Source: Diphasiastrum complanatum (Eukaryota; Streptophyta; Lycopodiopsida; Lycopodiales; Lycopodiaceae). From it: 64,000 bases of DNA. The notes beneath the pieces are model-generated. The model saw nothing but the letters and a program-made list of their open reading frames with translations, had not been told where the DNA came from and ran no database searches. The position numbers and the translations under genes were made by a program. Positions 6,728 through 62,771 of this stretch are shown here, piece after piece; the stretch's first letter is position 1, and every line of letters starts with the position of its first letter. The stretch spans positions 5,831,246-5,895,245 of the forward strand of contig CM055101.1 of the NCBI GenBank assembly GCA_029204225.1, given 5' to 3'.

Positions 6728-8345
6728 TGTGAAGCTTCTATTCTAAAAGTTCTCCTTTATACTTTAGTCATGCTTCTCGTACTGGTGATGTTACCGTCAT
6801 TTCTTCCGCTGAAGGAACTCGACAGGGGGATCCCTTAGGTGGTCCTCTCTTTGCTTTGACACACCATCGCGCATTGAGTGCTACAACTTCAGCTTTTTCC
6901 TCCTGTTTATTCCCCGCAATTGCGGATGATACTCATATTGTGGGGCCTGCTAGTGAAGTCGTCCCTGATTTTTTGTATTTCTCAGTTCAACTTTCTTCCA
7001 TTGGGCTTACAGTGAATAGGTCTAAGTGCATTGCTTGGTGCCCAAAAGGCCTTCCAGCAAATATCTCCTTACCTAAAAGTTTCAATACTCCTCAGCTTGG
7101 GATTAAGGCATTGGGTGTTCCCATTGGTTCTTCTGGATATGTCACTTCATTTATGCGAGAAGTTCTGGATGGATTTGCTCGTCATTTTGATTTGTTGCCA
7201 AAGCTTGGAAATTCTCAGGTTGCATTTGGAATTCTCACTCAGTGCTTTGCTCAACGTCCTAGTATATTCGAAGTTCATTTCTTCTTCGTTTGACATATTA
7301 TCCCTACTTCGAGATTTTGATGATAATTAATTGGGCGTATTTGGTCGCATTTTGGGGCCAGGAACGTTTGACACTTGTGAAGGTCAATTTCTAAGTGACA
7401 AATTTCTCTTCCTACCTCCTCTGGTGGTGTTGGCCTAGTATGATGCTTGCATCGCACCAGTTGCTTTTCTCAGAAGTTGGGCTCTTGTTGCCTCTGCACT
7501 AGTTTCCAGGTTTTAACATGGTAACCAGCCTCTTCTTCTTGATGTGGTGGCTCATGTGGAGACTGACAATTTTGCTTTTCAACACACTCTTCGCACTGCT
7601 CGAGATTTACTTCCACTGTTTGTACAACCTTTTGTGCCTCCCTTTGAATCTTTGGTGACAAATCAACAACTGGCTTTTCAGAAGACTATTTTGGAGCATC
7701 TTCACGCTTATTCCTTCGGTCAACTTATCAATGATTCACCTTTTGATGCAATTCGAGCTTGTCTTCTTTCTTATGCTGGTCCAGGTGTAGGGGCTTGGTT
7801 GGTTGCACGTCTAGTTCTTCCACTCTTGCGACTCAACAATGATTTATTTATAACTGCCCTTCGAACCAGATTGGGACTTTCACATCCAATGTTAATTGGT
7901 CTCTCTAAGTGTTCATTTGGGCATGTGTTGGATTCCTTGGGTACTCATCTTATGTGGTGCCTCTCAAGTGGTGAACGTATTATTTTACATGATTCCATTC
8001 GTGATGCCCTTACTGCTATTGCTTATGATAGTGGGTTTCATGTTGTTCGAGAACTGACACACATTTTATCAGGGCCTTCTTCGCAATCTTCTCGACGACG
8101 AGTTGACGTTGTTGTCTCTCGTGATGGAATTCAGACTCTAGGAGATGTTGTCATTGCTTATCCCTCTTGTCAGGACCTCATTCATCATTCTTCCAACACG
8201 GAAAGGGCCGCTGCATCTCACACAGCTCTTGAAAAGGAGCGAGATTATAATGATCGTGCACCCGGAGAAGATTTCATCTCCTTTGTCTTGGAAACATATG
8301 GTTGTTTGCACAAGAAATTCAATGATTTTTTATCTTTATGTGCGG

Positions 8346-8353
8346 AGCTTATG
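8346..8353. repeat. Target site duplication, left (agcttatg)
   Basis: The same 8 bp recurs at 8559-8566, directly flanking the 5S-tRNA insertion. The host reading frame carries through when one copy plus the 205-bp insert is ignored (213 bp, a multiple of three). Confidence 0.85.
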
Positions 8354-8365
8354 CTTCTTGGTTTC

Positions 8366-8435
8366 CAAGGGGAGGCTCGAACCTGGGACCAAAGAAACTT
8401 TGGATGCCAAGCCAACCAACTGAGAAAAGTGGTAG
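8366..8435 (-). other. tRNA-like part of the chimeric insertion
   Basis: The - strand contains ctcagttggttgg, resembling a D-arm/A box, an anticodon-arm-like stem ccaaag/ctttgg, and the B box ggttcgagcc. The acceptor and T stems pair poorly, so this is a tRNA-derived sequence, not a functional tRNA gene. Confidence 0.65.
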
Positions 8436-8555
8436 AGGGTGCGGCACCCGGACTTCCCGGGAGGTCACCCATCCCAGTACTATTCAGGCCCAAGCACGCT
8501 TAACTTCGGAGTTCTGATGGGATCCGGTGTAGTAGTGCTGGTATGACCGCACCAT
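8436..8555 (-). rRNA. 5S rRNA-derived sequence (pseudogene copy)
   Basis: About 120 nt on the - strand follow plant 5S rRNA, including gtcataccagcactac, ggatcccatcagaactccg, the internal A-box region agttaagcgtgcttgggc and the C-box region gggatgggtgacctcccggg. The terminal helix (ggtgcgg with ccgcacc) is kept. It is a single copy inside a retroelement ORF, not part of a 5S tandem array. Confidence 0.85.
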
Positions 8556-13889: not shown

Positions 13890-16800
13890 CGAATCCGTTT
13901 GGATTGGAGCTAGACTTTGCAAAGAACCCCTTCTTTTTTGTGAAGCCAATTCCTCTTGACAGCCTGTATGCAGGCAAATCCTTTACTCAACCTGTATGAA
14001 GCCCATAAAACTGTAGAGAAGAACGTGGTCTGTTGCCTGAGGAAAGTAAATTTGGACGATCCTGCCGTGGCACGACATGCAATTTCCTGAGCATTTAGAA
14101 TTCGTCAAAAGCACAAGGACCTTGTACTCTCAAAAAATCTCATCTCGCGATCCGATCATCCCATTATGTTCTGCTGCAACAGCGATAGAATTCTTGTTTC
14201 CTTTCAGCGTTGTTGTTGGAGTTCATCCCAAAACCCTAAACCTATCTCATCACATAGGCCATAGCACTGTGTAGGTCTTGAACTTCCCTGTGGAGCATAA
14301 GTAATTTGTAAGTTGTTGAAGTTCATCCAGGGAGCGCATCGTTTACCTGTATTTATATAATAGTATAATATAGATTCGTCAGGGAGAGAGAGATAGCGAG
14401 GGCACGAGATAGAGTTCTGGAGACTGAAAAAATATAAATTGTTGCTCTTTCATGTCCGATTCTGTAGATATCAGACATGGGAGGCATGGGCAGTGGTTAG
14501 GTTTGTTGCAAATTTTTTTGGGTACCGTTTTCCTATTTTTTAACAGGAGGGGGCAGGTGGGTGCCAGACACCCTCTAATAATTAATTCCGGGGGGGGGGG
14601 GGATAGGGGTCATAAATTGTTTTTATTTCGCGCTGGGGATGTGGGACAGTGAGGGCAGGGGCCTATATTTTTATTTTTATTTTTTTGAATTTTTGTTTTT
14701 GGAAAATGTCAGACGCGTCCACTCCCGAACGCACCCTTGAGGTGTCCGCGTCCGGACGCGCGTCTGCGTCTAGCCCCCGCTTCCTTAGGTACATGCATAT
14801 TCTGATACATGATCTCCATATCCAAGATAGAATTTCCTTGAAGTTGACCCCTTTCATGATGAGATGAAGAGCTTTGCACCATCCTAGCACCTTTGACAAT
14901 GATTCCTTCCAAATTTGATGAAGATGCTTGATCTTGAGGCTTACTCCTCCTTGATGTTGTTGCTCCTCCTCATTAGAAACCTGATACCTCCTTGTCTCAT
15001 AAGGATTACAAAGATCCATCATAAGATTTTGAGAATTAGGCATATCAAGATTGTCAAGACTATGCATGCTAATATAACATAGATTTTGCATCATTTCTTT
15101 ATGCTTGAATACAATGCTAATCTCAGATCCTATGAGGCTAAATTCTTCATTATGGATATAAGTGTCCGTGGAGGATGATTCACTTATTATCATAACAAGT
15201 TTACAATATGCCTCTAGAATTGAAAAAACACAATCTTTCATATCATGAATGAACAAATCACTCTTGATCTTATAAAAACCTAGAGAACACACATCATGAA
15301 ACCATTTCAATTCTCTTGAATTCATATCCCATACAAACTTGAATATGATGAAAATGAAGAGAAATACTCCCTTTGCCTTATGATGTGACAGCTCATCCCA
15401 CTATCAATCCACCAAGGATTTTCCCCATAGAACTTGATGAGGCACACATGGATGCCATGAATGACTCTTCTTCATAAAAGCCATCTTCCTGGAGAAGTTT
15501 GCCTCCTCATCTCCTTTGTGCAAGGAAAAAGATCCCATCCTAGCTTTGGCTTTCTGGATCCTACTCTCCTCGGCTATGAGAACACTTTGAAGCTTCTCAA
15601 TGAATGGAAGGGTGTCTTGGATAGCAAAACTTTGAACAAGATTGGAGTATTCATCTCCCAATCCATTCAAGATGACTTGGACAATCTCACTCTCCTTGAT
15701 TTTCTCACCTATGGAGCTCAATTCCATTTTGAGTGACTTGACTCTAAGAACATATGCTTGAGCACTCCCACCTATTTTCCTCATGCTTTGTAGGACTTGA
15801 TTCCTTAACATAAGCATCCTAGAGGTAACTTTTGACTCATAAATGGCCTTCAAGGAATCCCATGCTTCCTTGGCCGAGGTACAAGAAGCAACTTCTCAAA
15901 AGTTCATTACTTACATTCATTTTGATGCAGTGTAAGGCAAGATTACATTTCTTTTTGTATCTTTGCAATTCTTGACCTCCATGAGGTTCTTCCACCTCAT
16001 CAAAGACAAAATCATAAAGGTCTTGGAGTGTAAGTCGTGACTCCATCCTGACCTTCCAATTAGAATAATTGGATGGATTTAGCCTCTCACTAGATTCCAA
16101 GATGAATCCTCTAATAGATCCCATCTTAATCTACCTTTTTTTGGCACACAAAGCATTAAAAAACACAAGGCTCTTGTTTCTTACTGGATTTGCACTCTTT
16201 TGCAACCAAATTTGTGTCCTTCACAAATTGGAAGATCTTCAAAGACAATCTACTTCACAAGGGATGGTAGAAAATGGCACCTAGAATTCACAAAAGAACT
16301 CTCATGAAATTCCAAATGTAAAATGGGAATTCTCTCTACTCTAAACTCATCAAGTGGATCTCAATATGACCCTCACACTCTCACAAAGAAAGTTTGTTTA
16401 GAATCAATTTGGGTTTGCTTGCCAATTCTACACTCTAAATGAGTATTTTTCACTTTTGCATGTAACACAAGATCATTCTCTCTCAACAAGTTTTGATCTA
16501 TGAAGAAACCTGAAAAATCACTTTTAAGGCTCCTAAAACTCAGATCAAAACATTGGATTTACTCTCTTAATTTCAAACCTACCTATAGATTTGAAATCAC
16601 AATAGATTTTCCTACGCCATGGGGAAAAAATCACATCAAACTCTTAGAATGCAATTTTGGGAAGATCTTAAAAATATAGCCTCCTCTCTGGTCCTGTACA
16701 CCTTCACACGTGTGGGGAAGGTACCCGAGACATAAATCCAATGATAGATCCCAAAAAATCCAGTGATTACATTGTTAGAAACTCGCCCTCCAAGAAACTA

Positions 16801-19800
16801 GCTTTCTAGGTCCAAAAAACTAGCTTTCTAGCTCCAAATTTTGATCAAACACTAATCCTCATGCATTTGGCTCTGATACCATGTTGAAAATCAAACATAA
16901 TGGATTCATTCAATCCTTATGAGGGATTCAAGAACAATGATTATACAAGTGTTTATGATCAAATTTGGTTTCACACATGTGAATGACAGCCTGCTGTACG
17001 AACATAAGCCTGAGCATAAAGTTCTAACAATGATTACCACATTAGATTACAAAACATGCAAGACAAATGAGAGAAATCTTTGTTTGGTGCAAAACTAGCT
17101 CTATATTCTCCTTGATTCTCAATATACAAAATGGTCTCCATGATGGAGGGAGCACGACCTAATATGGCAGCTTTCGCACGTGTGGGGATGCTGCATGTAC
17201 TTGCATGCATGCCACTTTTAGTGCCTCATCATCATTCATTGATTTTGCACCACCTAGACACCTAGAAATTGCCAAATGTCAATTTTTGACTGTGTTACAT
17301 GGTTTTCTACATGCATGTCACCAAAACTTATGCATGAGTCAATGCATGTGTACTTTTCACACGTGGGAACAACATCCACACATGTGGAATGATCGTATGT
17401 ACATAGTACAAAGTTTTGGCCTACATCAAGCTATATTTTGCATGATTCTCACAAATTTTATACCATTAAACCGAAATTTTTTAAAGTTTAAAAAAAATTG
17501 CGAATACATTTAAAAACCAATCAAAATAGTAGAAATCTAAAAAACATGCCGACGCCATTCCTATACTTTGTCGGCTTAGGGTGCCGGTTTCATTAGCGGC
17601 TAAGTTGACAACATTTTAGATGCACTAATCAGTGAATCACTACATGATGAATCAGTGAATCAGCAATACCTAGGTATTATTAGATAACCTTGAACGTGTT
17701 CCGAAATGCTCCTTGTATACATCCATGGGTTTAGTTAAAGGTTGTGGTGGAAGAGCACATGCTTATAATTGGCGAAGCATAGAAGGGAACGTCTCTGCAA
17801 AGTTCTCTTCTGCCCAAGATATTTTTTGAATCTGAAGCTTTTCATACTATTGTTAGAAAGTGTCAAGGCTATAGCCCTTGCACAACACTCTAGGAACACA
17901 AATGGACAGGTAGCTCAGTGGTAGAGCACCCCATTGGAATGGGGGAGGTCCTAGGTTCAATCCCTAGCCCGACCACACACACCAAGTGTAAAAACTTTTC
18001 ACATGGTGTCAGAGCCATGGTTGTGGGTGTGGTCTAGGTGGGCAGTAGCTAAAAAGGGCTATGCCTTGAGGGGGAGTGTTAGAAAGTGTCAAGGCTATAG
18101 CCCTTGCACAACACTCTAGGAACACAAATGGACAGGTAGCTCAGTGGTAGAGCACCCCATTTGAATGGGGGAGGTCCTAGGTTCAAACCCTAGCCCGACC
18201 ACACACACCAAGTGTAAAAACTTTTCACAACTATGGGCCTGGAATTGCTTAATGTTGTAGCATTTGTAGCACCTTCTAACAAGTAGATATGCATACTATA
18301 GTTCATGGCTATTTTTAGTTTTCATAACTCTCTTGGATTCTGCAACATTGTGTTCAACAATTTTTGACTCCAACTAGAATTAAAGACATGAAAATATACA
18401 CATGTAGTTGCTCTTTTAAACTTTGTGTTTGATTTTGGACATTTGACTCATTGTTAATTGTCATAAAGATATTGAATCTTACCTTGCTCACATCTTACTA
18501 GTTTGAGTTTTGGAGCAGGTAGTTGGAGTAGTGACTCAACCTCAATCAAGCTCACGTTCAAGAAAAAAGCATGTTTTGTCTCCTGTGGCTCAACGGGCTT
18601 TTGATAGGGGGTTTCCCTCTAGTTCTATATTCCTTCCATCAAAAGCAGGAGAGGTTATTATAAAATATTTAAAAATTTTATTTTATTTTTTGTTGTGTGT
18701 AATAATCTACTTATGTAAGTTCTTGATGATTTTTCATGTTATGATGTGTGCTTTTAAGAAAGTCTTTCCACTATTTTTTATGTGATTACTTTGCAAATTA
18801 GATTGTAGAGCTCAATCTGAACTGTCATTACAATCAATTTTGCATCTACATGGTTTGGTATATCACTTCCTAGCGTTGAAAATAGTGTCATTTAGAAGAA
18901 TTTAGGTGACACTTGAAATCTTCATCTGGTTAGAAACATTGATATGTTTGTTAATTAATGCATTTGACAAGTTATTAATGCTTGTGTGTGTAGGAAAGTT
19001 TCTTATCAAGTCTAAAAGAATTACAACCAGATCTATGCATAACGGCAGCATATGGGAACATATTACCAAAGAGGTTCCTGGACATTCCTCCTTGTGGTAT
19101 TGACTTTGTTTTCATCTTTCGTCTAATTGTGGCAAATTTTCTTGTTGAAAGTATATAGATATTTAGCTAATTAAATGGAATTTGAAGTTGTTCGATACTA
19201 TGACATTTTCAATGCTAACCATTCTTTGCTTTGAGAAATGTCTGAACTTTGATTGTGGTTGGTGATTTCCTCGCTTGGGGTTTGTAGTCAAGATAATTCT
19301 CTGTCTATATGTGCGTGCGTGCTTATGCCTATGGGTGCGTTTATAAGTCTTTTATCTCTCATCTTGCAACACACAAATTTGAGGTCAACTTGATTTTTAA
19401 GATTCAGATGAACTTTCAGAGATATTAGTTTGAAGCTTATCATTCTTTTAGAGCATCTCTATCCATGTTTTTTAATTTTCTATGGACCTATTTAAATACA
19501 ACAGCAAATTTAGGGATGTAAAAGCTTGTGGTAGAGATATTTAATGCCTACATAGAAATGAATCAAGGATAGAAAAGGGAGTTGCTGATTTTCAAATTGC
19601 TCTTTTGAATTTAAGTTGCATCAAAATGCATTATGTGACCCCAATCTTTGAAATACTTTTTCTATACTGCACTGGAATTGTTTTTGGACCTCCACTATAT
19701 TATGAGACCAGACGTAGGTATTATTGCATATTTTAGGATCAGCTTGTCACACTCTGCATTATGAGAATTAGATATGTGTTGCCTTGGTTCTACACTTACG

Positions 19801-51722: not shown

Positions 51723-54700
51723 GGTCAGAATTTGTCATACAAATTCCAGATGGAAATTACTAGTCCTACTAGCACTCTAAACAAAGCATAGAGATTAAAG
51801 AGATTATAGATTGTAGAAGAAATCAGCAAAGCTCCAAACAACTGGAATGAACTGAGGTGGGGTGCCAGCCTACATATATAGTTTCTCTAATCTATGTGAA
51901 AAGCTAAAAGCATAAAGCAAATAGCAAAAGACAAAAAGCTATTTGCTAATATTACTACCTATATTGGGTAAAGACCCAAGATGTACTTCTAAGTGGAAAA
52001 ACAAATCCTAATCTAGTAGTAGTGCGCCCACCTACATGCATGAGTAATGAAAAATGCATTACTATAAATAGTAATGACCCTAAAAATATGACTTACTAAA
52101 AATAGTGATTGACCCTATAATAGCACGCAGGCATGGCCAAACTCACACTAAGGGGTACCAAATAAACATTAATTCCTAACACTCCCCCTTAATGTTTACT
52201 TTGATATATTACTCTTAGAAGTTCTCCAAGTTCTTTGGTAAAGATATCTGCAACTTGCTCTTCCGAAGGACAATAGATAAGCTCCACATCACCACTCTGA
52301 ATCTTCTTTCTGATGAAGTGCTGTTGTACTTCAATGTGCTTTGTCCTATTGTGAGAAACTGCATTTCTTGCCAATCTAATACAACTCTGATTGTCTACTT
52401 AGATTGAGAAATAAATAGCCCTTGCACTACTCTCCATACATCAATCCCAAGAAAATATTGTAAACCAAGATCTTTCATGTCAAACTCCAATGAGAGATCT
52501 TTCTTGATACCTTGAATCACATCATGATCTGATCCTGTAATAACAAGGTCATCCACATACATCACTATAATCACAATATGAAAATCCTTGATCAAAACAT
52601 AAAGTGTAGGCTCTGAACTACTCCTCTGAAAACCAAGCTCCTCAAAGTGCCAATCCTTGTGTACCATGCCTTCGGTGCTTGTTTCAATCCATATAGTGCC
52701 TTGTCCAACTTGCAAACCTTGTTTTTATGTCCTGCTACTATGTATCCCTTTGGCTGCTCCGTGTAGACTTCCTCCTCTAGAAATCCACTTAGGAATGCAC
52801 TCTTTACATCCATTTGCTGAATATCCCATCCAAACTGAGCTGCCAATGATGAAACCGTCCTCATAGTAGTAGACTTAGCAACTGGTGCAAAAGTTTCTTC
52901 ATAGTCAATCCCTTCCTGTTGAGCATAACCTTTTGCCACCAATCTTGCCTTACATATATCTATAGAACCATCTGATTTGTACTTAGTTCTATAGACCCAC
53001 TTGCATCCAATGGCCTTTTTACCTGTAGGTAACCGAACAAGTCTCCAAGTCTTGTTCTTCATGATTGAGTCATACTCCTCATCCATAGCTTTCCTCCAAA
53101 TGTCCTCTTTTTTAGCCTCCCTGAAAGGTAGATGGATCCTTGGTTTCCAATATTGCGGCCATATATGCAAAATGTACATCCCCATCTTCATGACGATCCT
53201 CCTGTTGAACCTCCTATCGATCTTGATCTTGAGTCCGATTCTCTACAACCTTTGTAGGACTTCGATTCAAAAGATAAACCGCCGTCTTAAATGCTTCACC
53301 CCAAAACATATTTGGAAGATTTTTACTCTTGAGCATAATCCTTGCCGTTTCCACTATAGACCGGTTCTTTCTTTCCGCAACTCCTTTTGTTGAGGTGTGT
53401 CAGTGTTTGCAAATTGTCTCTTTATACCATGATCCTTGCAAAACACCTGAAATTTCGTAGAAATATACGCTACCCCTTTGTCCGAGTGAAGTATCTTGAT
53501 TTGTCTATCTATTTCTTTCTCCACCCGTGTCTTAAACCATGTGAAATACTTGAATGCTTCACCCTTATTCTTGAGAAGATGTCTTCCTAAACTTGCTCCC
53601 CCATAAGATTGAGTTCTCATAGAATCATGTGATGCTTGCCTAAGACACAACCTTCACAAACCTTGTGATCAGAAACAACTTGAGGTAAACCTGAAACCAT
53701 GTTGTATTTCCTCTGTAATTCAGATGCCCAAACCTTTTGTGCTATAAATTGATCAACAGAAGGCCTCACCTCCTGTAACGATAACATCATCACAAAGTTT
53801 TGATAAGCTAAAGGTAGACTATTAAGCACAATGGATACTCAAATTGAATCCTGAACATTTTCTCCAACCGCAATAAGTTGTCCTCTCAGATCTTTCACCC
53901 GAGTAAAGTAGTCCGTTACTGATTCACCTGTTCCCATCTTCTATGTGTGTAGCTTATTAGTTAAAAACAAGATTCGTAACTGATTCACTGCCTCATACAG
54001 GTTCTTTCCAGCAAACTAGTTTAGTGTTTCAACAATAGGTAGAGTTTAGACAGCAATAATCGGATCCCAAGTCTGATTTACAGAGATGAAGTCTGATTTA
54101 CAAAGATGAAATCAGATCTGTAGCTAGGGATCAGGTCTGATCTTGTAATCAGCGAACAGGATCCAAATTAAGATAGCGAACAACTATAATTTGCACCCTC
54201 CAACACCTATGATCAATCTGTAGACAGCGACAATCCAGAAGTGATCAACCTGTCAGAATTTGATATATCAGGCAGTAAACAGTCTGCAGTTCCAGCAAAC
54301 ACTTGTAGTAGGCCAGAGATCAGGTCACTTTACTTCAGCCGACAATTGTATTTAGCCAACGATCTCAAATTCAGGTCAGCAGCAATCTCATTCAGATCTA
54401 TCTCAGCTCAGTATGCAAGTTCCCAGCGATTTAGATAGTAAAAACTTTGATTGCAGCTCAGCTATCAACCAGAAAATTATCCTGCTTAGGCAACAAAAAA
54501 GCTTGCTCTGATACCATGTCAGAATTTGTCATACAAATTCCAGATGGAAATTACTAGTCCTACTAGCACTCTAAACAAAGCATAGAGATTAAAGAGATTA
54601 TAGATTGTAGAAGAAATCAGCAAAGCTCCAAACAACTGGAATGAACTGAGGTGGGGTGCCAGCCTACATATATAGTTTCTCTAATCTATGTGAAAAGCTA

Positions 54701-54975
54701 AAAGCATAAAGCAAATAGCAAAAGACAAAAAACTATTTGCTAATATTACTACCTATATTGGGTAAAGACCCAAGATGTATGTCTAAGTAGAAAAACAAGT
54801 CCTAATCTAGTAATAGGGCGCCCACCTACATGCATGAGTAATGAAAAACGACTTACTATAAACAGTAATGACTCTAAAAATATGACTTACTAAAAAAAGT
54901 AATGGCCCCTATAATAGCACGTAGGCATGGCCAAACTCACACTAAGGGGTACCAAATAAACATTAATTCCTAACA
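51723..54975 (-). mobile_element. Ty1/copia element, complete ends, internally deleted
   Basis: 459-bp LTRs (51723-52181 and 54517-54975), 5-bp duplications gcatg (51718-51722, 54976-54980), a primer site (tggtatcagagc on the - strand, just inside 54517) and a polypurine tract (aagggggag beside 52181). On the - strand: a gag remnant fused to the pre-integrase motif (CEGCVLGKHHMIL, about 53640), integrase (KILHSDKGVAYIST, about 53480), RT (KSAFLSGFLEEEVY; VMYVDDLVITGSD, about 52560) and the RNase H end (NRTKHIEVQQHFIRKK, about 52330). The gag-protease stretch and part of RNase H are deleted, and frames are broken. Confidence 0.92.
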
Positions 54976-56541: not shown

Positions 56542-59500
56542 TGTAATAGATCCTAACACCACAGTAGGGCAAACACTAACTGATCCACCCAACCTTGCCT
56601 ACTCCCTGATATAGAGTAAGCCCCTCCTAGCCCAGTGTGAGGACTGGTAGCATGCTACTGCCAAGTGTCGGCCACGTGGCACTGACGTGGCCGACTGCAC
56701 GTCGGGACTCAACTGGGGGCCCTATCCTGCTGACAGGGTCCCTAGGCTGTGTTAGGCCCGCCATGGCTATGGACCGTGCTGGGGCACACTACTCACACTG
56801 TCTTGCCCTGTGGGTCATGTACGCTGGACACGACCCTGACTGTGGTATCTGACCTATCTGTGTTCTCTAGGGTTCGGCACTGGTTACGAGCTCGTAACAC
56901 TCCCTCCCCCTTAAGAACCGTCTTGGTCCTCTAAGACAAAGTCTGGAAAAATCTTGCGAAGGGCGCTGCCTCTTTCCCAAGTGGCATTCTCAACAGGCTG
57001 ATCATTCCACTTAACCAGATATTCTCGGTATAGAGTATGACGAGTTTGCGTCTCTCTACTATCTAGAATTTCCTCTGGTTCATGTGGAGGTTGTTGAGGA
57101 TCCAATGGGAGAACTAGAACACTGTCCCCTACCAGATTATCTGATCTGGTTAAGGCTTTTCGTAACTGACTTACATGAAAAACTGGAAAAACCTTACTGC
57201 TGTGTGGGAGTTCTAGTTCATAGGTGACCTCGCCTAGTCTCCTACTGATGGTAAAGGGACCACAATACCTTGGAGACAACTTAGCACACACTCCTGATTT
57301 GAGGGTTTTAGAGTCAACTGGGACTCTCAAGTAGACTTTCTCACCAGTGGAGAAATGCACATCCTGTCTGTGTGGATCTGCATAATGCCTGGCTCGATCC
57401 TGGGATTGTCTAATGCTACGCTTAGCATGTTCTATCATCTGGTTTAGGTCTTCTAAAAAGTTTCTGGCTGCTTCAACTTTTTCTTGTTTAAACCCTACAG
57501 CTGTGGGTGAGCGTGGCTGAAAACCGTACATCAGCATAAATGGGCTGTATCCCGTAGCTGAATGTTTGGTACTGTTGTAAGCAAACTCTAATATTGAGAG
57601 ATACTCCTCCCAATTAGTCTGCCTCTTGCTGACGTATGCACGAAGCATATCCTCCAGCACTTGATTTACCCTTTCTGTTTGACCGTCCGTCTGTGGATGG
57701 TCGGTGGTACTCATATTAAGTTTAGTATGGAGATGATGGAATACTGCCTTCCAAAAATTTCCAGTAAACTTACTGTCCCGGTCGCTGACTATGCCGGAAG
57801 GTAGACCGTACAATTTAAATAGCCCGTCTACAAACAACCTCGCTAACTCTGGAGCTCTAACGGTTGTTTTGGTCGGAATAAAATGAGCCATTTTGGTCAG
57901 ACGGTCAACTGTGACCCATATAGCGTCATTACCCTTTTGGGTTTTAGGCAGGCCTACTATAAAATCCATGGAGATACTCTCCCATTTACCAGCTGGTATT
58001 TCTAAGGGATGCAACAACCCTCCTGCCTTTAAACGCTCTGCTTTATTTACTTGACATTTCTGGCAACTGGTTACATACTGGTGGACGTCCTTTTTCATAC
58101 TGGGCCAGAAAAATTGCCTACGAAGAAGCTCATAGGTCTTCTGTATGCCTGGGTGTCCCGCGCTAGGATTGTCATGACATTCATATAGGACCTGCTGCCT
58201 ATAATCCTCTGAATTGGGGACACATACTCTATCTCTATAGAGCAAGTACTCATCCTGAATGGAATACTGTTTCCATTTGAATCCTTGAGTCAACTGACCC
58301 TCAACCACTGGGGTTTGCTTGGGTGATACAGGCTCAGAATCCTCAACGTCATCTGATGACGTATACTCGGACTCATCATCATCCTCAACGGAAGTTGCCG
58401 TATTCTTGGATGAACTGGCACCAGCCCCGGGAACTGGTTCTGGAGTCTGTAACTGTCTGTTCTGGACTGAGTTCCAGATAATAGAGAAGAATGCATCATG
58501 CTGGCATTTCCCTCTCAAGGACTCGAGTAACTCATTACGAATCTGAGTAAAACTCAGCTCGTTTATTATAGGCATTCTGCTAAGGGCATCTGCTACTGTA
58601 TTGAATTTTCCACGCCTATATCTGATAGACATGTCAAACTCTTGCATCAACTCTGCCCAACGAGCTTTCCGACCCCTAAGCTCAGGTTGATTGCAAAGGT
58701 ATCTGAGACTCTCATGGTCTGTCAGGACCTCAAATTTGGCACCATACAAATAATGCCTCCAAGTCTTAAGGGCATGGACTATAGAAAAGAGTTCCTTTTC
58801 ATAGGCACTATACCTAGTCTGTGCTGGCTCGAGTTTTTTACTCTCGAACGCAACTGGTCGTCCACCCTGAGTTAGCACAGCACCTACTGCAAAGTCGCTA
58901 GCATCTGTTTCGACCACAAATGGCTGATTGGGGTCGACGACTTTTAAAACTGGTGCTGTAGCTAAGGCTGTTTTGAGAGCATCAAAGCTCTCCTGTTGTG
59001 CAGACTCCCAAATGAACTCCTTTCCCTTCCCCTTAAGAAGATTTGTCATAGGGACTGCTATCTGAGCATATTCCTTGACAAATCGTCTGTAATATCCCGC
59101 CAGACCAAGAAAGATTTGAAGTTCCAAAATATTCTGAGGTCTCAGCCAACTGAGTATGGCTTTAACCTTATTTGGGTCCATCTTAATCCCATCTGAAGAG
59201 ATAATGTGACCCAAATATGCTACTTCTTCAACGAAGAATTCACACTTGGATTGTTTAGCATAAAGCTTATGCTTTCTGAGCAGTCGAAACACCTTTCTGA
59301 GGTGTTTTAGATGCTCCTTCCTCGTTTTGCTGTAGACGAGGATGTCATCTAAAAATACGACTACAAACTTACCCAAGTATGGTCTGAGGACACTGTTCAT
59401 CAAGGTCATAAAGGTAGCTGGAGCATTTGTGAGCCCAAATGGCATCACCTTAAACTCATAATGACCGTGACGAGTCCTAAAAGCTGTTTTCGAGACATCT

Positions 59501-62500
59501 TCCGATTTTATACGGACTTGATGATATCCCGATCTGAGATCTATTTTGCTGAAAAACTTAGCCCCGTCGAGTTGATCAAACAACTCGTCTGCCCGAGGCA
59601 TAGGGTATTTATTCTTAATTGTGACTTTATTGAGGGCTCTGTAATCTACGCAAAGACGCATAGACCCCTCTTTCTTTTTCACCAATAGGACTGGTGAGGC
59701 CCATGGTGAACTACTGGTCTGAATTTGGCCTTTCCCAAGATAGTCTGTTAACTGCCTAGTTATTTCTTCATCCTCTGTTCGGCTGACCCGATACGGAGGT
59801 TTAGAAACAGGTGTTGTACCTGGTACTAGGTTTATTACATGATCTACCTCTCTGCTAGGTGGTAAACCATGTGGCAAATCTTCAGGAAAAACATCTTTAA
59901 ATTTAGACAATAAAGTTTCTAATTTACTGATTTTCTGCTGAATAGAACTGGAAATAGAAACTTCAGGAATAAACTGAAAGTCACATAAGAATACCTGATG
60001 GTCTTCGTCTCCGATTAGCTGACAGAGCTCTGAACTGCAGACCATAGGGCTGTTGGGAACATCATGCTCCCCATGCAACTGGATCTCTCGGCCTTTATAC
60101 TGAAAGCTGAGAGTGTTCTCCTGATAGTTTCTGTGGAGGGAAGGTCCTAAACTGTAGAGCCAATCTCTCCCGAGAACAATGTCTGTTCGATCTAGGTGCA
60201 TTATCTGAAAGTTTATTTGATCTTGGTACCCCTGAATACCAAGATTTAACTTACTTACCATAGTTTCCCATATTTTTTTATCTTCACCCTTAGCTAATGA
60301 AACTATGTACCTATGCTGACTAGGTACTTCTGGTAGTTTAAGCTTTTTAACCAGGGTGTGGTTGATGAAATTATGGGTTGCCCCATCATCAACCATGACT
60401 CTTACTGACTGGTTACCAACTTTCCCATGCATACGTACTAGGTCATGCGGCCCAAAGCTGAAGGGTCTCGCTAGCATTGCAGAGGTCAGCTGGCAACAGT
60501 GTTCATGATCTTCATGATACACTTTAATCTCGGAAGCTGCCGAGTCACTGGGGAAACATACAGTCTGAACAAGATGAACTTGTTTTTTATCTTTCTTATC
60601 TTTTTTAGTGAAAGGCCCCTTGGGACACTGTCTGACTGTGTGTCCCTTGCCCATACACACAAAGCACAAACGTTCTTGTTTGGCTTTCTCAAAATCATCT
60701 GGTTTTAAGGGCTGTATGAGTGAAGGGCGTTTCTGAGGAGCTTCACCTTTAAATTTATCTTCTTTCTTTCTTTTTAAAAATTTCTTTTTAAATTGAAAGT
60801 CTTTCTGAGGAAGCTGCTCAGAAAGTGGTTGCTGTCTCGCTCTCTTCCTACCCACTGAATCATCATAGATTTGAGCATATCTGAGAGCTTGCTCAAGGGT
60901 AGTAGGCGAGTTTCTCTGGACCTCTACTTTATATTCATCTTTGAGGCCACGGACAAATCCCCTGATTTTTTGATAGTCATCCATATTTTTAATCTTTAAA
61001 ATTGCCTCTCGATACTGCGAGATATATTGGATGAGGGACTTGTCCATTACTGTTCTTTCCCAGGCTTCCCAGGCTCTATCAAGTTCATTCTCTGGTAGAA
61101 ATTCTCTTAGGAAAGCTTCTTCAAAAGCTTTCCATGACCGGGGAGTCTGCCCAGTCTCCTGGAGATTTAACCACCACTTATAGGCCATAGGCCCTAAAGA
61201 AAGACTGGCCTCAATTGCTTGCAAATGGTCAGGGGTCTGTTTAAGAGCATGAATGTTCTTCCATTTGTTGAGGAAGGTTTGTAGAATATCTGCATTTCTA
61301 TCCTTCTCTTCCCCATTAAAAGTAGGAGGCTTTAAATCTTTAAAAACACTGGGGTGAGACCGTAAAGTCTCACCCGAAACTGATGGAAGTGGAGAAGGGG
61401 ATAACTGAGAAGTGGAGGGAAGGCTTCCTTTCGCGGAGCTCAAAATCAAGTTTTTGAGTTCAGCGAACGAGTCGTCCACACTGGACTTGAAATTGGCTAA
61501 TGCCAGCTTCAGTTCATCCACTTCTGTTACCAATTGGAGGAACTGCTCCTTGGTAACCAGTTCGTCGAGTTCTTCGGCGAACTGTTCCTGTTCTTCTACT
61601 TCCATGGGTTCCTTCCCTTTTCTGTAAGCCAAGGCTTCTGTTTCAAGTTCGTCGAAGCCTCTCTCCTGGGGTTGATCAGGTCCCTGAGGAGTGGTCATTT
61701 TCGAAACTGAAAGAGAGCTACCTTAACTTCTGAAGGAAAAAAGTCTAAAAGACTAATTTACAACTGTACAAGGGAAAGGAAAGATGACTTAGCTGTTTCT
61801 GAGGACTGTACTTCCAAAGAAAGAATGAAGAGGAACCCTTTCAGCTCTTTTCCCCAAAATTTCAGACTTGCTGTGCCGAAAAATGCCAGTTTGAAGCTTC
61901 AAAACGGTGCTAAATTTCCCGGTTTTTTGATGATAGTAGCTCGTTGGTCTGATAGGAATCCTCTTGCTCCAAATCTCTGACGTTGGGGCCCAAAAACTTG
62001 TTGAAAAACCAGATTTTCAGAAGTACTGGCAGCGCTGGCCCTGCTCCTCCTTTTTGGCTTCAAACTCGCTGAGAACCAGTAACTTTTTCCCTGGAAATCG
62101 GATGTAGGTCTCTGACTGTACAGCGATGGAGGTGCTGGCTTCTTCCTACTCTAATTTCGCTGGGAAAACTATAGAGAATCCTCTCAACTCAGTGGGAAAC
62201 AGCTGTTTTTTCAGCGAGTTACCTACACTTGGAATCTGACTCCTTGCTACTGTGATTTCTCAGTGGAAATCAGAAGTTTGAAGGCTGCTCCTACAGCGAT
62301 CCTCCTCCTCTATTCCTCTCTGAGAATCTGAGAAACACTTCCTATCTTCTGATAGCTTTCTCTACTACTGTCCTGAACTCCCTAGGATGGAGATGGCTCT
62401 GATACCAATGTAATAGATCCTAACACCACAGTAGGGCAAACACTAACTGATCCACCCAACCTTGCCTACTCCCTGATATAGAGTAAGCCCCTCCTAGCCC

Positions 62501-62766
62501 AGTGTGAGGACTGGTAGCATGCTACTGCCAAGTGTCGGCCACGTGGCACTGACGTGGCCGACTGCACGTCGGGACCCAACTGGGGGCCCTATCCTGCTGA
62601 CAGGGTCCCTAGGCTGTGTTAGGCCCGCCATGGCTATGGACCGTGCTGGGGCACACTACTCACACTGTCTTGCCCTGTGGGTCATGTACGCTGGACACGA
62701 CCCTGACTGTGGTATCTGACCTATCTGTGTTCTCTAGGGTTCGGCACTGGTTACGAGCTCGTAACA
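56542..62766 (-). mobile_element. Intact, young Ty3/gypsy chromovirus
   Basis: LTRs of 358 bp each (56542-56899 and 62409-62766) differ by one base by eye (gggactcaac versus gggacccaac). Target duplications ccttg (56537-56541, 62767-62771) are perfect. On the - strand the primer site ttggtatcagagcca follows the right-hand (5') LTR, and the polypurine tract aagggggaggga precedes the left-hand (3') LTR. One uninterrupted ORF fills the interior. Near-identical LTRs and an open frame imply recent insertion. It is nested in the leader of another gypsy element. Confidence 0.97.
56911..61698 (-). CDS. Gag-pol polyprotein of the chromovirus (1595 codons)
   Basis: Domains in order, with approximate residues: gag (130-300), CCHC knuckle [14 protein letters not shown] (345), aspartic protease [10 protein letters not shown] (438), RT with [14 protein letters not shown] (781), RNase [15 protein letters not shown] (931), integrase HHCC (1180-1222), DDE core ([30 protein letters not shown]; 1244-1344), and a C-terminal chromodomain [20 protein letters not shown] (1546-1592). 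All domains are in one frame without frameshift or stop, typical of chromoviruses using a single polyprotein. The copy could be autonomous; activity is not shown by sequence. Confidence 0.95.
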
Positions 62767-62771
62767 CCTTG

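Follow-up and report, generated by a model that had tools for sequence, protein, structure and literature searches.

The 64-kb window, i.e. the whole stretch of Diphasiastrum complanatum DNA that was analysed, contains a 379-bp element that by structural criteria belongs to a family of TRIMs of the Helenus type. It is a new family within an already published class (Helenus, 2024), not a new kind of element. From its layout, we consider it probable that this Helenus-type TRIM is non-autonomous, that it is transcribed by RNA polymerase III (Pol III) via a captured tRNA promoter, and that its helper is a Copia-type element.

Structure of the element in the window

The element has two LTRs of 153 bp with TG...CA ends and an interior of 73 bp on the forward strand (Table 1). 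The preliminary description had noted two differences between the LTRs, and these were recovered, i.e. 151 of the 153 positions (98.7%) are identical, and the 5′ and 3′ LTRs differ at LTR positions 86 (G/T) and 111 (T/A). The iMet primer site, the polypurine tract, and the perfect ACTAT duplications that it had listed were also found. The primer site of the window copy, TGGTGTCAGAGCC, has one mismatch compared with the canonical TGGTATCAGAGCC. Scanning of the 5′ LTR in the window for TATA[AT]A and AATAAA revealed neither.

Each LTR contains one TTTT, which begins after a gap of 20 nt downstream of the tRNA-like part, as had been proposed. These are the sole T4 runs in the element, and they stand in the context CTTTTCA. 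The A and B boxes in Table 1 were called with patterns that follow what we take to be the consensus forms of the two boxes.

Table 1. Positions of the features of the TRIM and of the Copia element in the window
Feature	Position	Strand	Evidence or remark
Target site duplication ACTAT, left	17846..17850	+	identical to 18230-18234
5′ LTR, 153 bp, TG...CA	17851..18003	+	
tRNA-like sequence, 5′ LTR, 72 nt	17904..17975	+	RF00005 56.5 bits, E 1.6e-9
A box TAGCTCAGTGG, 5′ LTR	17911..17921	+	pattern scan
B box GGTTCAATCCC, 5′ LTR	17954..17964	+	pattern scan
TTTT, Pol III terminator-like run, 5′ LTR	17996..17999	+	pattern scan
Primer binding site TGGTGTCAGAGCC, iMet type, directly 3′ of the 5′ LTR	18004..18016	+	
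Non-coding interior, 73 bp	18004..18076	+	
Inverted-repeat arm 5′ of the polypurine tract	18054..18068	+	partner 18090-18105; seen by eye before testing
Polypurine tract AGGGGGAG, end of the interior	18069..18076	+	
3′ LTR, 153 bp, TG...CA	18077..18229	+	
tRNA-like sequence, 3′ LTR	18130..18201	+	A box 18137, B box 18180; RF00005 57.8 bits, E 7.2e-10
TTTT, terminator-like run, 3′ LTR	18222..18225	+	pattern scan
Target site duplication ACTAT, right	18230..18234	+	identical to left copy
Copia element, LTRs	51723-52181, 54517-54975	-	RVT_2 match (Pfam)

The tRNA-like part of the LTRs

The preliminary description had recognized a 72-nt tRNA-like sequence in each LTR and suggested a check with a tRNA covariance model. 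With the Rfam model RF00005, the two window LTRs reached 56.5 and 57.8 bits, well above the gathering cut-off of 29 bits. An E value of about 1e-9 in each LTR rules out a chance resemblance to tRNA, as does a 19-nt stretch of the D arm that occurs twice in the window, compared with 0.01 occurrences expected. A local tandem duplication of a tRNA gene is ruled out by the perfect target duplications at 14 of the 28 sites in the genome (see below).

Direct reading showed that the D stem (4 bp), the anticodon stem (5 bp), and the T stem (5 bp) are perfect in both window LTRs. The perfect T arm, the D arm, and the A and B boxes claimed earlier are thus present, the boxes by pattern scan; with the patterns used, on both strands of the 64-kb window, A and B box pairs, as well as B boxes, occur only in the LTRs of the element. 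The claim of a cloverleaf stands for these three stems, but it does not extend to a normal tRNA, because only five of the seven pairs of the acceptor stem are formed in the window copy and its anticodon loop comprises 6 nt instead of 7 nt (both by direct reading). ARAGORN reports both window LTR sequences as “tRNA-???”, with a two-base anticodon and no isotype. As the anticodon loop is one base short, the tRNA-like part of the LTR looks like a promoter-bearing relic and not like a working tRNA gene.

A dispersed family in the genome

The genome of the same organism (1,744,706,496 bases, 5176 contigs) was searched for the LTR element. The search returned 697 candidates, the best 40 of which were scored, giving at least 48 matches including the window. 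As the best 40 of 697 candidates were scored, all copy numbers are minimum values, and the copies recovered are those with the highest similarity. The 47 matches outside the window represent 39 loci, i.e. 40 loci with the window. Grouping of the loci by common flanks resulted in at least 28 sites; the remaining 12 loci were counted with the site with which they share a flank.

The family is dispersed across many contigs (at least 28 insertion sites, including the window). A lack of other copies with the same structure would have refuted the preliminary description, but copies with the LTR–73 bp–LTR layout and 5-bp duplications were found genome-wide. Perfect 5-bp target duplications are present at 14 of the 28 sites, window included, and the other 14 lack them. 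In the first copy of each of the 28 sites, there is no flank identity of 6 bp or more. Three of the sites without a duplication have more than two LTRs (L033, L043, and L047), and at two (L025 and L047) further element sequence adjoins the copy.

The first interior at each site is 72 or 73 bp long in all 28 cases. It carries the canonical iMet primer site TGGTATCAGAGCC at 19 sites and ends with GAGGGGGAG at 25. For the 25 sites with two LTRs, the LTR–LTR divergence ranges from 1.3% to 11.1%, with a median of 2.6%, and the window copy is one of six sites at 1.3%. The family is therefore partly young. A sample of 200 kb from 20 other places of the genome contained no further copy, and pattern scans of viral and prokaryote contigs gave no matches, as expected.

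Several loci have an unusual organization. L047 (C18:47512875-47514770) is a tandem array of six LTR units in the same direction, in which three of the five spacers are about 29 nt long rather than 72-73 nt, and an additional, inverted LTR lies at the edge of the array. At L015, a reverse complement of the primer site (at least 13 nt) abuts the outer edge of the 5′ LTR, and L030 and L021 have shorter reverse-complement stubs of the primer site, about 8 nt, at the outer LTR edge. The 20-nt sequences immediately before L030 and after L021 are perfectly reverse-complementary to each other. The reversed stubs at these three loci may reflect rearranged insertions or aberrant integration.

The tRNA part as a trait of the family

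To judge the tRNA part across the family, one locus was taken for each of the 27 sites outside the window. The RF00005 threshold was reached by 60 of their 61 LTRs, the only exception being one LTR of L033, which shows that the tRNA part has spread as a component of the LTR. ARAGORN made 53 tRNA calls in these loci, 51 of them without an isotype; the two exceptions were a tRNA-Ser in L017 and a tRNA-Phe in L047.

For the comparison of single positions, the LTRs of all 28 sites were combined into a set of 62, leaving out the inverted LTR of L047. The anticodon arm has a length of 16 nt in all 62 LTRs. The A box fits the consensus in 53 LTRs, the B box in 54, and both boxes in 46, so that one box or the other is off consensus in 16. 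A T4 or T5 run is located within the last 43 bases of 54 LTRs, and none of the 62 has a T4 run within its first 110 bases.

Selection on these motifs was assessed by comparing changes common to both LTRs of a copy, i.e. changes that predate the insertion, with changes in one LTR, i.e. changes that arose after it. For the A and B boxes, the fractions were 2 of 23 older and 18 of 129 younger changes (p 0.74), and selection was not detected among the retrieved copies, which, as the closest matches, vary too little for such a test. The two older changes are both G to A and affect one and the same site, at which the A-box consensus accepts either purine. For the T4 run, the corresponding fractions were 0 of 23 and 8 of 129, which leans in the expected direction with too few changes to judge. 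The 129 changes within elements include 84 transitions, 25 of them at CpG, a pattern that would fit methylated DNA.

Relationship to Helenus and other short elements

The Helenus elements were described by Kojima (2024; PMC10886601) as TRIMs with a tRNA-derived sequence in their LTRs, with rust and other fungi, animals, and one plant, Selaginella moellendorffii, as hosts. The features of the class were compared with those of the present family one by one. A Helenus element is a TRIM of <1000 bp with two LTRs, and the window copy has 379 bp. Helenus LTRs contain a tRNA-derived sequence with A and B boxes, which applies to both window LTRs (56.5/57.8 bits) and to 60 of the 61 LTRs at the other sites. 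The primer site and the polypurine tract are at the two ends of the interior, and the whole is short and non-coding, as in Helenus. Duplications of 5 bp are typical of the plant and fungal members; here they are ACTAT in the window, perfect at 14 of the 28 sites and not at the other 14. Like Helenus, the family is multicopy and dispersed (at least 48 matches, at least 28 sites). Lastly, the tRNA part of Helenus is mostly unfit as a tRNA, and here 51 of the 53 ARAGORN calls and both of those in the window lack an isotype; the founding paper (PMC10886601) used tRNAscan-SE for this purpose. Tandem arrays have also been reported for one Helenus family.

The Selaginella moellendorffii element, Helenus-1_SMo, has LTRs of 120 bp, an interior of 85 bp, and 5-bp duplications according to its published description (PMC10886601), compared with LTRs of 153 bp, an interior of 73 bp, and a total of 379 bp here. 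A 2016 survey of plant TRIMs reports TRIMs in the same species, and its main text contains no word starting with tRNA (PMC4717578). Among the matches listed in the openly licensed literature, there were no further reports of tRNA-bearing plant TRIMs.

The preliminary description had drawn a parallel to Cassandra and read the element as a case of a captured tRNA promoter. The parallel is sound insofar as the element is a TRIM with a tRNA-type Pol III promoter sequence in the LTR, but it is not new, as the class had already been described by Kojima (2024; PMC10886601). The group of TRIMs with a Pol III promoter goes by the name TRIMp3. Cassandra shares with the present family the TRIM layout with the Pol III promoter of a small-RNA gene in each LTR, the occurrence of tandem arrays, and a methionine primer site, which in Cassandra is described as TGGTATCAGAGC (PMC7215508). 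In contrast, the promoter is of the tRNA type here and of the 5S type in Cassandra, and membership in Cassandra was rejected on the basis that there is no Rfam 5S match within 17851-18229.

SMART and the ordinary plant TRIM families are in the same size class; they are not known to carry a small-RNA gene in the LTR. The tRNA-derived SINEs (SINE2) resemble the element in having a promoter head with A and B boxes. LTRs, a primer site, a polypurine tract, and duplications of a fixed length of 5 bp are traits of LTR retrotransposons that are absent from SINEs.

Proposed transcription and replication

LTR retrotransposons replicate by tRNA-primed reverse transcription and priming at the purine tract, and the duplications are made by the integrase. 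Because the element codes for nothing, its replication functions must be supplied by another element. In the proposed cycle, Pol III would start near 17904 in the 5′ LTR from the captured tRNA promoter, read past the TTTT at 17996-17999 and through the interior, and stop at the TTTT at 18222-18225. The resulting full-length RNA would comprise about 320 nt. Its R, repeated at both ends, would span about 96 nt (17904 to ~17999), compared with 53 nt for U3 and only about 4 nt for U5. The reverse transcriptase of a Copia-type element would copy this RNA with the iMet tRNA as a primer, and the integrase of the same Copia-type element would carry out the insertion.

Our best guess for the helper is a Copia element, as suggested by shared termini and the duplication length and not by a shared interior. 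In the Copia element of the window, TGGTATCAGAGC immediately follows the LTR, and the AGGGGGAG-TGTTAG junction is identical to that of the TRIM. Both of its flanks read CATGC, provided that a change is assumed in the terminal base of its 3′ LTR. A Copia helper has also been suggested for SMART (PMC10886601).

Because the TTTT of the 5′ LTR is situated shortly upstream of the primer site, Pol III would have to read through it to make a full-length RNA, and the majority of its transcripts may end at this T4 run of the element itself, short of the primer site. The multi-element transcripts of Cassandra arrays, which presumably arise by reading through LTRs (PMC7215508), hint that a related element is capable of such read-through. 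For Helenus, Kojima (2024) describes Pol III transcription as not validated (PMC10886601).

Three other readings of the LTR were considered. The first is compatible with the cycle proposed above, and its probability falls a little short of an even chance: the T4 run of the 5′ LTR would be the usual terminator, so that every LTR, including solo LTRs, would mainly give rise to a short RNA of about 96 nt, with the full-length RNA as the outcome of rare read-through. The position of the T4 run points in this direction, and the excess of younger over older changes in it (8 of 129 versus 0 of 23) would agree, although the changes are too few to judge. More tentatively still, we suggest that the transcribed LTR could be almost wholly R, and that a short tRNA-like RNA would be made by default, while a replication-competent RNA, with a terminal repeat of about 96 nt and the primer site 4 nt past the first terminator, would be made on read-through only. 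The leakiness of the terminator could then set the rate of transposition.

Secondly, the element could be a Helenus-type TRIM with the tRNA part as a mere passenger and with transcription by RNA polymerase II from U3, as in ordinary TRIMs. The early T4 run, at which many Pol III transcripts could terminate ahead of the primer site, is in line with this, as is the fact that no extra conservation of the A and B boxes was detectable within the highly uniform set of most similar copies. In addition, Cassandra-related TRIMs of Asteraceae that lack the 5S part and have TATA boxes have been described (PMC10853983). On the other hand, the 5′ LTR in the window has no TATA[AT]A, the tRNA part is preceded by a U3 of just 53 nt, and the boxes and the T4 run are present in most of the 62 LTRs, so that we regard polymerase II transcription with a passenger tRNA part as unlikely.

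Thirdly, it is highly improbable that the tRNA part is a separate tRNA-derived SINE, acquired by one LTR in a single insertion and multiplied by local copying, and no trait of the family, because all 28 sites, on many contigs and 14 of them with a duplication of their own, share the layout with the tRNA part at the same place of the LTR. The proposal of Kojima (2024) that Helenus originated by insertion of a SINE into an LTR (PMC10886601) makes a more ancient SINE ancestor possible. Pol III transcription of a Helenus-type TRIM with a Copia-type helper remains the preferred explanation.

An inverted repeat around the polypurine tract

The polypurine tract of the window copy lies between the arms of an inverted repeat (18054-18105; arms of 15-16 nt with one bulge), which was seen by eye before testing. 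Both arms are unchanged at 19 of the 28 sites. The polypurine tract of the window Copia is also placed between two arms, of a different sequence (about 52160-52201, reverse strand), again seen by eye before testing. With a score that counts Watson-Crick pairs only, the TRIM reached 12, a value equalled by 1 of 3000 random places in the window, and the Copia element 10, equalled by 20 of 3000. Only one of 200 shuffled sequences folds at least as well as the TRIM stretch.

A polypurine-tract hairpin as a Copia-wide feature was not upheld. With a laxer score that admits G-U pairs, 58 of 2000 shuffled sequences were as good as the TRIM and 267 of 2000 were as good as the Copia element, and the fold predicted for the TRIM in a context of 85 nt does not use the stem of the inverted repeat. 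The Watson-Crick-only scores were 5 for the Gypsy element at 56899 and 6 for the AGGGGGAG-TGTTAG site at position 3625 of L057, both of which lack the repeat. The surroundings of the latter site gave no Pfam match for three frames; a gag-like match in L057 is located on the opposite strand from it.

Other features of the window

The window contains plant-style Copia and Gypsy frames and iMet primer sites. A Gypsy-like element on the reverse strand (56542-62767) has an open frame of 1603 codons and LTRs that are 99.7% identical, which suggests that its insertion is probably recent. A Copia gag domain (PF14223) was found at 15404-15895 on the reverse strand. Upstream of it, at 16881 on the same strand, are an iMet primer site and an LTR-like TGTTAG... 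stretch. No second LTR for this stretch was present in 14000-17850.

A full-length 5S rRNA copy is located at 8436-8554 on the reverse strand (RF00001, 111.7 bits), the only 5S match in the window. An open frame on the other strand (7517-8503, +), for which no Pfam match was obtained, ends within the 5S copy, and no repeats of 14 nt or longer were found around this copy. It carries box A and box C patterns as described for the 5S part of plant Cassandra (PMC7215508), and may represent a dispersed 5S gene copy or belong to a mobile element.

Implications

For the host, the LTRs of this family may inflate the number of tRNA genes counted in its genome. For the Helenus class, which in the founding paper is known from one plant species (PMC10886601), the present elements add a plant family. 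As this family is multicopy and partly young and has single as well as arrayed copies, it opens the claim of Pol III read-through to a direct test.
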